Part shown: positions 31,479 to 54,404 of the stretch, piece after piece
How positions within the stretch are numbered: the first letter of the stretch is position 1
Layout: each line of letters starts with the position of its first letter
Assembly: GCA_022793195.1 (NCBI GenBank)
Contig: JAAWCJ010000015.1
Span: 1 to 58,385 of the forward strand
Direction of reading: 5' to 3'
DNA: 58,385 nucleotides
Source: Lachnospiraceae bacterium
GTDB taxonomy: Bacteria > Bacillota > Clostridia > Lachnospirales > Lachnospiraceae
Notes under the pieces: generated by a model
The model's database searches: none
Told to the model about the DNA's origin: nothing
What the model saw: only the letters and a program-made list of their open reading frames with translations
Translations under genes and position numbers: made by a program

Positions 31479-32840
31479 TCATTTTTTCTTCTTCCCGGAA
31501 AACTTTTTACAAATTCCCACAACCACACCACTCAGTGCAAGAAGCGCCAGGGCGTTGGGCAGTACCATCAGGCCATTAAAGAAATCCGCCAGGGCCCACA
31601 CCAAATCCACTTTCATGGCAGAGCCTGTAATGATGAATCCCAGCACCAGGAGGGAATAAATCTTTGTGGCCCGTTTCCCAAAAAGGTACTTCACATTGAT
31701 TTCCCCGAAGAAATGCCAGCCAATGATGGTGGAAAAAGCAAAAAACAACAGACATACCGCCACAAAAATGTCTCCAAAGCTTCCGAATCTGGTGATAAAC
31801 GCCGCCTGGGTAAGGGCAACGCCCGACTGGCCGCTTGCCAAAACGCCGGAAGTCAAAATGGAAAACACTGTCAGGTTTAAAATCACAAAGGTATCAATAA
31901 ATACGCTGATCATAGCCGTCAGCCCCTGCTGGTGAGGGTTTTCTGCTGTGGCCCTGGCATGGGCATGAGGAGTGGAACCCATTCCGGCTTCATTGGAAAA
32001 CAATCCTCTGGCCACACCGAACCGGATAGCTTCCCGGACGGCAATCCCCGCTCCGGCCCCTAAAACTGCTTTCGGGTTAAAAGCCCCCACAAAAATCATT
32101 TTAAAGGCAGCGGGAATTTGTGCCGCATTGAGAAGAATCAGCGCCAGGCTTCCCACAATATAGACCCCGGCCATAAACGGTACGATCTTTTCCACCACCG
32201 AAGCCAGCCTGGAAGTACCGCCGATAAAAATAAATCCGGCAAAAACGGCCAATACAATCCCAATGGCAACCGGCGGAATATCAATGTTCCTGGCCTCAAA
32301 CACTTTGGAGAAAGCATCTCCGATGGAATTGGACTGAACCATATTTCCCATAAAACCCAGGGCTAAAATAATCAGCACCGCAAAAATCCCTGCCAGGATT
32401 TTCCCAAATTTCCCCTTAAAAACCGCTTTGATATAATAAATCGGACCTCCTGTCACCTCTCCGTCCACAACTGTTTTATACTGTTGGGCCAAAGAAGCTT
32501 CCGCGTAAATAGTGGCCATTCCAAAAAAGGCAGACATCCACATCCAGAAAATAGCTCCTGGCCCGCCGCCAAGGAGAGCCGTCGCCGCCCCTGCCAGGTT
32601 TCCCGTTCCCACCTGGGCTGCAATGGCTGTTGCCAGAGACTGAAAGGGCGTCATCTCTCCCTTTCCGCCCTTTTTCCCCTTCAGGCTCATATGTCCAAAC
32701 ACGAGCCTGCAGCCTTCGCCAAATTTCCGCACCTGGATAAACTTCAACCGGATGGTAAAGAAAATCCCCGTGCCGCATAAAACCAAAATCAATAATACGT
32801 CCCACAAAAAACTGTTTGCCTTGGTCACAATAGATAACAT
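31479..32840 (-). CDS. Alanine/glycine:cation symporter (AGCS family)
   Basis: 453 residues with about 10-11 membrane helices. The AGCS signatures are GEMTPFQSLATAIAAQVGTGNLAGAATA (core AAQVGTGNLAGAA), GPGAIFWMWMSAFFGMAT, and GLFSNEAGMGSTPHAHATA-like (FSNEAGMGSTPHAHARA) near the middle. These proteins import alanine or glycine with Na+ or H+. The start at 32840 follows GAGGAG. The leader carries a glycine riboswitch and terminator, so glycine is the most likely transported ligand. The C-terminus ends in a lysine cluster. Confidence 0.92.
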   Translation of the reverse strand: MLSIVTKANSFLWDVLLILVLCGTGIFFTIRLKFIQVRKFGEGCRLVFGHMSLKGKKGGKGEMTPFQSLATAIAAQVGTGNLAGAATALLGGGPGAIFWMWMSAFFGMATIYAEASLAQQYKTVVDGEVTGGPIYYIKAVFKGKFGKILAGIFAVLIILALGFMGNMVQSNSIGDAFSKVFEARNIDIPPVAIGIVLAVFAGFIFIGGTSRLASVVEKIVPFMAGVYIVGSLALILLNAAQIPAAFKMIFVGAFNPKAVLGAGAGIAVREAIRFGVARGLFSNEAGMGSTPHAHARATAENPHQQGLTAMISVFIDTFVILNLTVFSILTSGVLASGQSGVALTQAAFITRFGSFGDIFVAVCLLFFAFSTIIGWHFFGEINVKYLFGKRATKIYSLLVLGFIITGSAMKVDLVWALADFFNGLMVLPNALALLALSGVVVGICKKFSGKKKK

Positions 32841-32899
32841 ACTTTTTCTCCTCTTTTCCCCGTTTTCATTTAGACTTTTAGGAAATTTCCCCATACGCT

Positions 32900-32923: not shown

Positions 32924-32944
32924 CCTCCAAAGAGTCGAACATCT

Positions 32945-33082
32945 GCCCTGTCCTTTTGCCTGAGAGATATACAGGAACCGCTTCCTTTTTAAACCGTTCC
33001 CGTTTTACACCTTCGGCGCTTTCCCGGCAGACACCCCTGTCTGCGGAAAGACTCTCCAGAGTGTCGGCTACGCCGACTTCCT
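32945..33082 (-). ncRNA. Glycine riboswitch, single aptamer
   Basis: On the minus strand the aptamer reads ACTCTGGAGAGTC (near 33051-33064), then GCGCCGAAGGTGTAAA (near 33004-33019), then CTCTCAGGCAAAAGGACAGG (32947-32966), the conserved glycine riboswitch blocks in order. Only one copy of the aptamer core is present, not the common tandem. It leads directly into a terminator and then the AGCS symporter. Confidence 0.92.
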
Positions 33083-33130: not shown

Positions 33131-33315
33131 GCATCTCAAAACACACACCTCCTGTTTGACAGACGATAGGAAGGTTTTGCAGATTTTGCTGTGTCTAGCG
33201 ACGCCGGAACTGTCTCGCTGCTTCTATGGAGGCAGTGGACGGCGTCTATAAGCGGCGCAGCAAAATCAAAAAAACCGACGTGTCTGTCAAACAGGAGGCG
33301 CGTGTTTTGAGATAC
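33131..33315. repeat. Hairpin element, copy A (shared core inside unique arms)
   Basis: A 34-bp arm at 33131-33164 pairs with 33282-33315 with three mismatches, all of which become G-U pairs in minus-strand RNA. The 117-bp core between (33165-33281) is shared with copies B (40241-40341) and C (54034-54383). In minus-strand sense it opens ACGTCGGTTTTTTTGATTTT and ends AGCAAAATCTGCAAAACCTT plus CCTATC. Inside the core GATTTTGCTG and CAGCAAAATC pair, extending the structure. It lies between the lyxose isomerase stop (33333) and the glycine riboswitch, where it can act as a terminator. Confidence 0.82.
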
Positions 33316-39153: not shown

Positions 39154-40227
39154 ATGACAAACATTTTACCTCAGACCAGCAGTATCAAATACAAGGCTCT
39201 CTATTCATGGATTATCGGAAAAATCAATGATGGATCCTTCAGTTATAAAGAAAAACTGCCTTCGGAATCTTCTCTCTGCGAATTATTTCAAGTCAGCCGC
39301 CAGACTGTCCGAAACGCCATGGATCGGCTTTACCAGGAAGGCTATATTGAACGAGTAAAGGGAAGTGGAAGTTTTGTAAAAAAGCCTGTACGGATACGGG
39401 AAAAAACCATCGGAATCCTGTTTCTCACCCTTGCCGGTTATATCAATACCAATATTCTCAATGGAATTGAAGAAGTCCTTACAGGACAAGGCTACAGTAT
39501 TCTTTTGGAACTGAGCCACAACCGCGTGGCCCATGAGGCGCGTTTCCTGCAGAAAATGCTGGCCAGTAATGTATCCGGCCTGATCATTGAAGCCACAAAA
39601 AGCAGCTTCCCCACTCCAAATGAGCATTTATACCGCAGACTGGCCCAGCTTAAAGTACCTTACGTCTTTGTCCATGGAGGGTACGCCAATGTGGACGCTC
39701 CGGCCATTGTATGGGATGACAAAAGGGTTTCATATGAACTGACCGAACGCCTGATTAACGCAGGCCATAAAAAAATCGCCGGACTTTTTAAGTTCGACGA
39801 AACCCAGGGGGTCAACCGTTATCTTGGATATATCAATGCCCTGGTGGACAATCATCTGGAAATACAGGAAGATTACATCGGATGGTACAGCGATTCCAAC
39901 CAGCCGGAGGAAATCCGGCGGAAAAATAATTACGCCGATGCATTCGCCATGGATATTTTGGGACACTGCACCGCCCTTGTCTGTTACAACGACCTGATCG
40001 CCTGCCATGTTATCCGCCACTACATCTCAAACGGCGTTTCCATCCCGGAGCAGCTCTCCGTAGCCAGTTTCGACAACTCCGACGTCACAAAACTCTACAA
40101 CTTGCAGCGGATTCCCAGTGTCACTCACCCGAAGGAAGAGATGGGCCGGCAGGCTGCCTCTCTTTTGATGGAATATATCGAAAACCCTTCTCTGGATGCT
40201 GCGACGAAAAAAATTATCACTTTATAA
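39154..40227 (+). CDS. AraR-type regulator (GntR DNA-binding domain with LacI-like sensor)
   Basis: 357 residues. The first 70 are a GntR winged helix (KLPSESSLCELFQVSRQTVRNAMDRL), and the rest is a LacI-type sugar-binding sensor (KTIGILFLTLAGYINTNILNGIEEVL and LSVASFDNSDVTKLYNLQRIPSVTHP in outline). This hybrid layout and length are those of AraR. It is divergent from the lyxose isomerase/ABC operon, which it probably represses until the sugar is present. The ATG at 39154 follows GGAG by 7 nt. Confidence 0.9.
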   Translation: MTNILPQTSSIKYKALYSWIIGKINDGSFSYKEKLPSESSLCELFQVSRQTVRNAMDRLYQEGYIERVKGSGSFVKKPVRIREKTIGILFLTLAGYINTNILNGIEEVLTGQGYSILLELSHNRVAHEARFLQKMLASNVSGLIIEATKSSFPTPNEHLYRRLAQLKVPYVFVHGGYANVDAPAIVWDDKRVSYELTERLINAGHKKIAGLFKFDETQGVNRYLGYINALVDNHLEIQEDYIGWYSDSNQPEEIRRKNNYADAFAMDILGHCTALVCYNDLIACHVIRHYISNGVSIPEQLSVASFDNSDVTKLYNLQRIPSVTHPKEEMGRQAASLLMEYIENPSLDAATKKIITL

Positions 40228-40240
40228 TCCAAAAGCGAAG

Positions 40241-40341
40241 AAGGCTCCCTGTACAGACAGACACGTTGATTTTTTGATTCCGGCGCTAGACGCGGCAAAA
40301 TCTTCAAAATCTGCCTGCCGTCTGTCTGTACAGGGAGCCTT
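40241..40341. repeat. Hairpin element, copy B (short core) acting as terminator of the AraR-type gene
   Basis: The arms AAGGCTCCCTGTACAGACAG plus AC (40241-40262) and their exact complement (40320-40341) form a perfect 22-bp stem, followed on the plus strand by TTTTT. The 57-bp core (40263-40319) begins ACGTTGATTTTTTGATT and ends GCAAAATCTTCAAAATCTG plus CCTGCC, matching both ends of copies A and C but lacking about 60 bp of their middle. The arms share no sequence with those of A or C beyond CAGAC/GTCTG at the core junctions. Confidence 0.85.
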
Positions 40342-53373: not shown

Positions 53374-54024
53374 ATGGGCCTCAAACAAAACCTTGATATT
53401 TTAGTTTATAACAATATTGTTGATTCCTTAATCGTAGGAGAATATCAAATGGGCCAGCAAATTTTGCTGGATACCTTTGCAGAAAAATATGGAGTCAGCA
53501 GAACCCCCATCATACAAGCTGTAAAACTGCTTGCCAATGACGGAATTTTGGATGTCCTGCCCAACGGCAGGGTCTGTGTACCCACTTACAGCGAAGAACA
53601 AATTAAAAAAATCCGGAATGTCCGTATTATTTTGGAACACTACGCGCTGGAAGAATTATTCAAAGAACAAAATGCCGATAGTTTTAACGGAACCATTGAA
53701 GAGCTTGACAAAATCGCCCTTCAGGCATTGGAAGCCATTGAAAATGGCAACAAGCTTTTATTCAATCAAAAAGACCTTGAGTTTCACCGCTGTCTGGTAA
53801 ACGGCGCAAAAAACGAATTCCTGTCTGATATTTATAAGCGCATCCAGGGACGTTTTGTTGTGGCCAATTATCTTTTCATTCCCTGGGAAAACCGGGATTT
53901 TATGTATGCGGCAAAAGACCACCTGGCTATTATGAAGGCATTAAAAGCCAAAGATTTGGAAAACTGCAAAAAATACGTGCAGCAGCACATTCGCAATGTC
54001 GTAAAAGGATCCAATCCCGCATGA
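53374..54024 (+). CDS. GntR-family regulator, FadR/FCD subgroup (candidate controller of the acid-utilisation genes)
   Basis: 216 residues: N-terminal winged helix (GQQILLDTFAEKYGVSRTPIIQAVKLL, core VSRTPIIQA) and a C-terminal FCD ligand domain with Asp/His positions in NQKDLEFHRCLVNGA and AAKDHLAIMKAL. FCD regulators typically bind organic acids such as lactate, gluconate or fatty acyl esters. It is the only regulator gene near the liv operon, DapA-like and malic enzyme genes, whose promoters share its own promoter's AT-rich motif. Confidence 0.88.
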   Translation: MGLKQNLDILVYNNIVDSLIVGEYQMGQQILLDTFAEKYGVSRTPIIQAVKLLANDGILDVLPNGRVCVPTYSEEQIKKIRNVRIILEHYALEELFKEQNADSFNGTIEELDKIALQALEAIENGNKLLFNQKDLEFHRCLVNGAKNEFLSDIYKRIQGRFVVANYLFIPWENRDFMYAAKDHLAIMKALKAKDLENCKKYVQQHIRNVVKGSNPA

Positions 54025-54033
54025 ATTTAAAAT

Positions 54034-54383
54034 GGCCTAACCTGGTTTCCGCCTCTGCTTCCGGCAGACACGTTGATTTTTTTGATTTTGCCGCGCCGCT
54101 TATGGCCGCCGTCCACTGCTTGCATAGAAACGGCCAGCAGTTCCGGCGACGCTAGTGTTCTGTCTGGATTGTATCTGACGAAACTCCGCAGAATATTCGC
54201 TCATCGGCAAGGCGGATTTTCGACGGCGTAGCGGTGGCTACGGATAGAAAATTCAACGCAGCAGATGAGCGAAAAGACAAGGAGGTTTGGCTGAATATAA
54301 TCCAGACAGAACACTAGACACAGCAAAATCTTCAAAATCTGCCTACCGTCTTCCGGAAGCAGAGGCGGAAACCAGGTCAGACC
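54034..54383. repeat. Hairpin element, copy C (interrupted by a second element)
   Basis: A 36-bp arm at 54034-54069 pairs with 54348-54383 with three mismatches. The core is ACGTTGATTTTTTTGATTTT... (54070-54155) and ACACAGCAAAATCTTCAAAA... (54318-54347), about 116 bp once the insertion at 54156-54313 and one CTAG are removed, and it aligns along its length with copy A. The arms (CCTGGTTTCCGCCTCTGCTT core) differ completely from those of A and B. It fills the convergent gap between the gntR and AAA ATPase genes. Confidence 0.85.
54156..54313. mobile_element. Nested 158-bp inverted-repeat element (MITE) with CTAG duplication
   Basis: The ends TGTTCTGTCTGGATT (54156-54170) and its complement (54299-54313) are perfect 15-bp inverted repeats; the similarity continues imperfectly inward (both arms carry TTCGCTCAT). 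CTAG flanks it on both sides (54152-54155 and 54314-54317), while copy A has a single CTAG at the same point, giving a clear empty site. It has no coding capacity. Four-base YTAR duplications are typical of IS5-family transposition, so an IS5-type transposase elsewhere may move it. Confidence 0.85.
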
Positions 54384-54404
54384 TATATAAATTGATGCGG
54401 GAAT

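Follow-up and report, generated by a model that had tools for sequence, protein, structure and literature searches.

The window, the 58,385-nucleotide stretch of Lachnospiraceae DNA analysed here, holds three hairpins, copies A (33131-33315), B (40241-40341) and C (54034-54383), each an inverted repeat around a common core. Copy A has its core on the minus strand: the full 118-nt core (CACGTCGG...CCTATC) spans 33165-33282, the arm on its 3' side lies at 33131-33164 as an inverted repeat of 33283-33315, and the arm on its 5' side, at 33283-33315, pairs with it. A glycine riboswitch (47 bits) is found at 32938-33069 on the minus strand, in the gap that separates copy A from the start of the minus-strand ORF 31479-32894. 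Copy B, on the plus strand, consists of a left arm at 40241-40261, from which weaker pairing extends outward to the stop codon at 40225-40227, a 58-nt core without the inner hairpin at 40262-40319, and a right arm at 40320-40341 that is followed by a T-tract. Copy C, also on the plus strand, has a left arm at 54034-54068, a core at 54069-54347 that is broken by a nested 166-bp repeat at 54152-54317, and a right arm at 54348-54383. Its outermost left arm, at 54016-54029, reaches over the final codons and stop (54022-54024) of the ORF 53374-54024 and pairs, with one mismatch, with an outermost right arm at 54388-54401, an inverted copy of the gene end. Because B lacks the inner hairpin and C contains the nested repeat, A is the only full plain copy among the three. 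The cores of all three are matched by a covariance model, with 134 bits for A (33146-33300, minus strand, by model R1, of which A is itself a row), 67 for B and 46 for C. The joint between arm and core, described as CAGAC/GTCTG for all three copies in an earlier sequence-only reading, has that form in A and B, but the right side of C reads GTCTTCC; in the wider family this joint marks one subfamily, and most printed copies carry GTCC/GGAC or similar.

The nested repeat of copy C has ends with TGTTCTGTCTGGATT and CTAG at both ends. It occupies the same core CTAG in copy C and in L056, occurs alone at L081 (C55:71279), and resembles stretches seen in G005 and G009. Another nested repeat, seen as GCAAAGCACTAAAGCGCG... 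or as its opposite end, breaks the core at the same CTAT/CTAG region in L073, L078, L083, L089, L258 and L274. The similarity between C and L056 was considered as proof that the core moves alone, and was rejected, since their 91% match comes mainly from the nested repeat and the cores proper look, by eye, much less alike.

The sequence-only reading spoke of a three-copy family and suggested searching the genome and its relatives for the core. The family proved far larger: the core is matched at at least 57 places of the source draft genome (G000; merged searches, some places partial), with at least 41, 7 and 47 own-genome matches when A, B and C, respectively, are the queries. We fetched 51 places outside the window that match the core or the nested repeat, of which L081 and L082 hold the nested repeat or part of it only; five core-matching places of G000 were left out of this set. 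Within the genus, 7 of 11 genomes have core matches; with the covariance model at E up to 1e-5, so do at least 20 of the 299 searched genomes of the family Lachnospiraceae, the source genome being counted in both. Under strict filters, the maximum in one genome of another genus is at least nine covariance-model matches, and the distant copies follow the same plan and carry their own arms. In named records, the exact core pattern is present in 12 stretches from three genomes, all of them Lachnospiraceae MAGs, two of which are called uncultured Lachnotalea sp. A viral origin was discarded, as the core pattern had no match in viral contigs and a protein from the neighbourhood gave no viral relative.

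The covariance model was built from an alignment of 59 cores with their arm ends (A1), comprising 58 of 77 core candidates plus copy A; near-duplicates, cores with nested inserts and broken cores were left out. The consensus structure from this alignment has 40 pairs, 32 of which show double changes, and the structured core is about 116 nt long, set in a long hairpin. No submitted copy reached threshold in Rfam (13 and 15 sources scanned), and a known RNA family was rejected as the identity of the element. The only Rfam families above threshold were a glycine riboswitch and a T-box, both adjoining copies; below threshold, mir-3160 scored 39.7 bits (gathering 80) on the L047 arms, and BSnc120 matched at a distance of about 800 bp from copy B. 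Searches of open-licence papers turned up no description of this element family. Two copies, L142 3498-3605 and L100 (one from G008 and one from G010), have an outer core helix with an extra small insert after GATTCGCCATAGCGTG. At L296 (G291) and L308 (G114), paired cores in opposite orientation lie 2.2-2.5 kb apart with genes between them, by eye chloride-channel-like and regulator-like ORFs in the former and an integrase-like ORF with small ORFs in the latter.

The core is under sequence constraint and the long inverted repeat around it is not. Among the seven type 2 copies of G000 (the three of the window plus four more), cores are 0.75 identical; the two arms of one copy are 0.92 identical, and the arms of different copies 0.53, against 0.50 for shuffled arms. 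With inner 30-nt arms that are 0.90, 0.90 and 0.93 identical within A, B and C, this upholds the original observation that the three copies share a core and have arms that differ between copies yet are partners within each. Across five copy groups, core identity is 0.75-0.89 and mean within-copy arm identity 0.80-0.94, compared with 0.53-0.79 between copies and 0.50-0.56 after shuffling. The between-copy value is 0.57 in G004 (0.56 shuffled), 0.57 in G291 (0.51 shuffled), 0.67 in type 1 (0.56 shuffled) and 0.79 in G006/G008/G010 (0.52 shuffled); in the last group it is close to the within-copy value of 0.80, so this group says nothing for concerted arm change. Copies that all carry the same arms, which the sequence-only reading had said would count against it, thus exist in some sets (G006/G008/G010, G251) and not in others.

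Pairing is found in nearly every copy. When small shifts are allowed, at least 20 of 28 inner-arm positions form Watson-Crick pairs in 101 of 102 distinct copies, and at least 24 of 28 do so in 73 of the 102; with shifts disallowed, the lowest arm identity is 0.30, in one of 80 copies. The cells of the arm helix, counted on the same alignment from which the structure was derived, comprise 331 that changed on both sides, 16 one-sided standard pairs and 151 that are unpaired. In young copies, pairing extends by eye for about 75 nt per arm.

Arm identity in G000 falls from 0.84 at core identities of at least 95% (20 pairs) to 0.54 below 78% (125 pairs). Because arm identity tracks core identity in this way, the arms must be inherited together with the core, and they drift faster than it. 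In G251, three copies whose cores are identical also agree fully in the left arm and differ at no more than two of 30 positions in the right arm. Two G291 copies with 95% identical cores have arms that are only 0.66 alike, and by this comparison arm turnover in G291 is apparently faster than elsewhere. These observations bear on a different account, in which only the core inserts, into a host terminator loop whose stem then provides the arms. Type 2 arms, barely above shuffled, are what such insertion would give, but arm similarity that follows core similarity, and arms that are common to young copies, are not.

Orthologous sites allow gain and loss to be told apart at several loci. We looked up 18 G000 sites, fifteen plus A, B and C, in G009 and assigned their states by eye. 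A full core is present at two (L052, L067), inverted in both cases; a coreless hairpin or remnant is present at eight (A, B, L044, L049, L050, L054, L063 and a fragment at L077); and there is no element at the other eight (C, L051, L053, L056, L057, L059, L085, L093), with a downstream flank that is not alignable at L053, L051, L056 and L093. L059 is flanked by a 9-bp direct repeat and its site is empty in six of six other genomes examined, which indicates the gain of a whole hairpin, here at a site without a visible hairpin. At L049, the coreless hairpin of G009 retains CACAGACACGTC, with which the core begins; it is therefore a deletion product and represents a loss. L054 likewise points to a loss, since G009 keeps the element-specific outer arms, and in other genomes the site has another terminator-like hairpin or no hairpin. 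Site C in G009 has neither hairpin nor element. The outer-arm 15-mer GGCTGTTGCAAAATA occurs 62+65 times with at most two mismatches, against 1+1 for the control, and hairpins that have these outer arms but lack a core are abundant; in 11 of 30 loci inspected by eye, nine distinct short hairpins without a core were seen. At the G009 site of copy A (L175 1033-2995), two ORFs of 322 and 349 aa are inserted beside the collapsed hairpin, both with DPPY motifs, which we take to be typical of DNA adenine methyltransferases, and they are possibly a defence or modification insertion.

Several sites could be read as terminators awaiting a core. Coreless terminator-like hairpins with long, unrelated stems stand at orthologous gene ends (for the gene of copy C in G010, G005 and G002; for that of copy B in G010), L085 sits within a host terminator-like stem that is still present without the element in G009, and G009 has a coreless hairpin at site A and at L044, two sites that are ambiguous. 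Against insertion of the core alone stand the entry of L059 as a whole hairpin, the G009 site of C that is free of both hairpin and element, the deletion at L049, and arms that changed in place between species at L061; L059 and G251 moreover point to young insertions with donor-like arms, unlike the empty site. We consider this account distinctly unlikely. The change of arms at orthologous sites, the gain at L059 and the losses together argue that the core does not as a rule enter terminator loops that already exist, and that arms are rebuilt. Both possibilities had been offered from the sequence alone, together with a search for empty sites. Precise insertion into terminator loops finds no general support (L059, C, L049, and young copies sharing arms) and keeps one fitting case, L085, where the stem exists without the element; no such hairpin is seen at site C in G009 or in the six genomes where the L059 site is empty. 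Rebuilding of arms after insertion has fared better, as orthologs change both arms together and the core can flip in place. The earlier interpretation as a whole is partly supported.

The core is present in at least two genomes at six clearer ortholog sites (L052, L060, L061, L062, L067 and B). At three of them (L052/L125, L060/L096 and L067/L134) it is inverted relative to its flanks, the spacer inversion that marks a template-switch locus, and the count is four of nine if weak ortholog pairs are included, which adds L092/L137. The weak pairs that were kept are L055/L103 (70.8% identity, with little sequence beyond the element), L044/L123 (unlike in arms and in core type) and L092/L137 (one flank); L111/L094, L117/L072 and L126/L069 were dropped because the core position differs or the match is weak. 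The cores of L060 and L096 are 97% identical and the innermost arm bases move together with the core, as judged from one flank only, the G009 contig ending at the element. Another mark of template switching, arms that stay alike within a copy while diverging from their orthologs, is seen when L061 is compared with L139/L119 (G006, G008): paired arms are kept within each (0.97; 0.90), and arms are only 0.62-0.65 alike between the species. Exceptions with weaker within-copy pairing are L062/L132 (0.68, where the boundary used was offset) and L060 (0.71). The outermost right arm of copy C, which has no counterpart seen at the G009 site, suggests a switch that copied the gene end outward, in a single case. 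Homologous recombination between the arms could also cause the inversion of the core. As the genomes compared are one per species, homogenisation, recombination between arms and selection are not fully separable here.

How the element moves is less clear from its ends. Convincing direct repeats of 9-11 bp adjoin the ends of three copies, L059, L303 and L306. Those of L059 (9 bp) are accompanied by empty sites, and in G251 two of four copies are flanked by such repeats, of 10-11 bp; most copies have no target site duplication. A systematic scan found direct repeats of at least 8 in 16 of 108 rows, against a control mean of 8.55 (maximum 16), and of at least 9 in 12 rows, against a mean of 3.56 (maximum 7). 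Among these 12 rows are six whose repeat is internal to the arms, one whose repeat lies far out and three that stand for a single G251 site, and the scan is thus weak evidence, close to control and affected by repeats inside shared arms. End sequences are common within young sets only (GGGGCTGTTGCAAAATA in G000, CCACCTGTGCGG in G006/G008, CANGACAAACGCATGAAT in G251).

An ordinary MITE, a non-autonomous element that an insertion sequence mobilises by recognising its arm ends as terminal inverted repeats, with arm differences due only to age and subfamily, would account for the direct repeats flanking three copies and for ends held in common within the young sets of a genome. The hairpins are also short and dispersed without a transposase gene, the window copies (101-350 bp) being too short for one. 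However, we found no end sequence common to the whole family, and the most conserved part is the internal core. The terminal inverted repeats that a MITE family would share are missing: arms and shuffled arms are 0.53 and 0.50 alike in type 2, and 0.57 and 0.56 in G004. Nor does the only pair of facing ends about 1-2 kb apart that was noticed by eye among the listed matches in draft genomes (G251:C2:8675-10279, 1.6 kb) enclose a transposase-like ORF; by eye, regulator-like and hydrolase-like ORFs lie there between two coreless hairpins. An ordinary MITE is therefore possible but rather doubtful. Since only the core is common to the family, the mobilising enzyme would either vary with lineage or read the core. 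A transposon with a recombinase that recognises the fold of the core and the arm symmetry, and not a terminal sequence, is a speculative and unlikely candidate; if it were true, arm sequence would be free, template switching would keep the symmetry, and the element could have private terminal repeats yet still be mobile.

The hairpins lie mostly at gene 3' ends. Of 50 clear contexts, 20 are convergent, 27 tandem and three divergent, with a further 52 copies having no clear class. By eye, A- and T-tracts adjoin many stems, and a G+C-rich stem followed by a T-run is seen in copy B and many other copies. From this placement and these tracts, the hairpins are probably also transcription terminators, a role we predict as likely. 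Selection on RNA, with a terminator or 3'-UTR fold keeping the arms paired through ordinary compensatory mutation, would then be one explanation of the strong covariation, and the 3'-end placement and adjoining A/T-tracts agree with it. Acting alone, such selection would predict that G-U mismatches outnumber A-C ones on the sense strand and that one orientation is preferred. In the 27 clear tandem contexts, the 44 sense-strand mismatches comprise 25 GU and 19 AC (p=0.45); G-U is not significantly in excess on the strand with the sense of the mRNA, which speaks against selection on RNA as the only cause. The orientation of the core with respect to the genes shows no bias, at 9 versus 9 in clear tandem contexts and 15 versus 12 with distant copies, and the core flips between orthologs. 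A first ORF scan had suggested that nearly all copies are aligned with the upstream gene; this was an artefact of convergent contexts, and choosing the strand by the longest ORF gave 9 forward and 9 reverse. The pairing of about 75 nt per arm in young copies, as seen by eye, exceeds the length a terminator needs. On balance, we find it unlikely that RNA selection is what keeps the arms paired.

We think it fairly probable that these hairpins, which some gut bacteria carry, are a non-coding, hairpin-shaped mobile element family of Lachnospiraceae with a constrained core and arms that are rebuilt by template switching. Comparison of copies and orthologs supports that the whole hairpin, including its arms, is copied to new places, that the arms afterwards diverge quickly between copies and in concert within each copy, that the core flips in place between them, and that hairpins collapse by deletion to coreless hairpins. 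During replication, the nascent strand may switch from one arm to the other and back; this would copy one arm onto the other and so homogenise them, might sometimes extend the palindrome outward into host DNA, and might sometimes invert the spacer. If template switching rebuilds the arms in this manner, they need no sequence conservation to stay partners.

Integron attC sites are read by their fold and vary in stem sequence, with conserved ends and a middle that varies. The Lachnospiraceae hairpin has a similarly variable stem, but its layout of conserved and variable parts is the reverse. Among other dispersed repeats, pneumococcal BOX, RUP and SPRITE are likewise short and folded, SPRITE being terminator-like; as described in the available part of that account, BOX and RUP ends pair mutually and resemble insertion-sequence ends, and so are family-wide (PMC3049150). 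By these descriptions the Lachnospiraceae hairpins are set apart, since their arms are private to most old copies and their conserved part is internal. The stem-loop repeat families of 40 bacterial genomes (PMC2267715), compared here by description, are also defined by a common fold; the available part of their species table contains no recognised Lachnospiraceae, and the available text lacks the words 'compensatory' and 'arms'. The closest parallels are template-switch loci. As far as the accessible portions of these papers go, template switching between short inverted repeats homogenises arms and inverts spacers (PMC8604942), and leaves footprints of multiple compensatory changes, stem extension and loop inversion (PMC8794818). 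Counterparts of all these footprints are seen in the hairpin family, arm homogenisation and spacer inversion being alike and stem extension being suggested once, by copy C only. In the same portions of these sources, the published inverted spacers and loops are a few bases long, the yeast spacers (PMC8604942) among them, whereas the spacer of the Lachnospiraceae hairpin is about 116 nt, and the published cases are scattered loci, whereas these hairpins are a dispersed element family.

The length of the spacer makes inversion unmistakable in this family. Compensatory evolution of long stems is usually attributed to RNA selection, and with so many copies evolving side by side, each joining a constrained core to arms that are free to change, the hairpins are a natural replicate experiment for template switching as the mutational alternative. 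For the bacteria that carry it, the family is a structured repeat that spans Lachnospiraceae genera and places long palindromes at the ends of genes.
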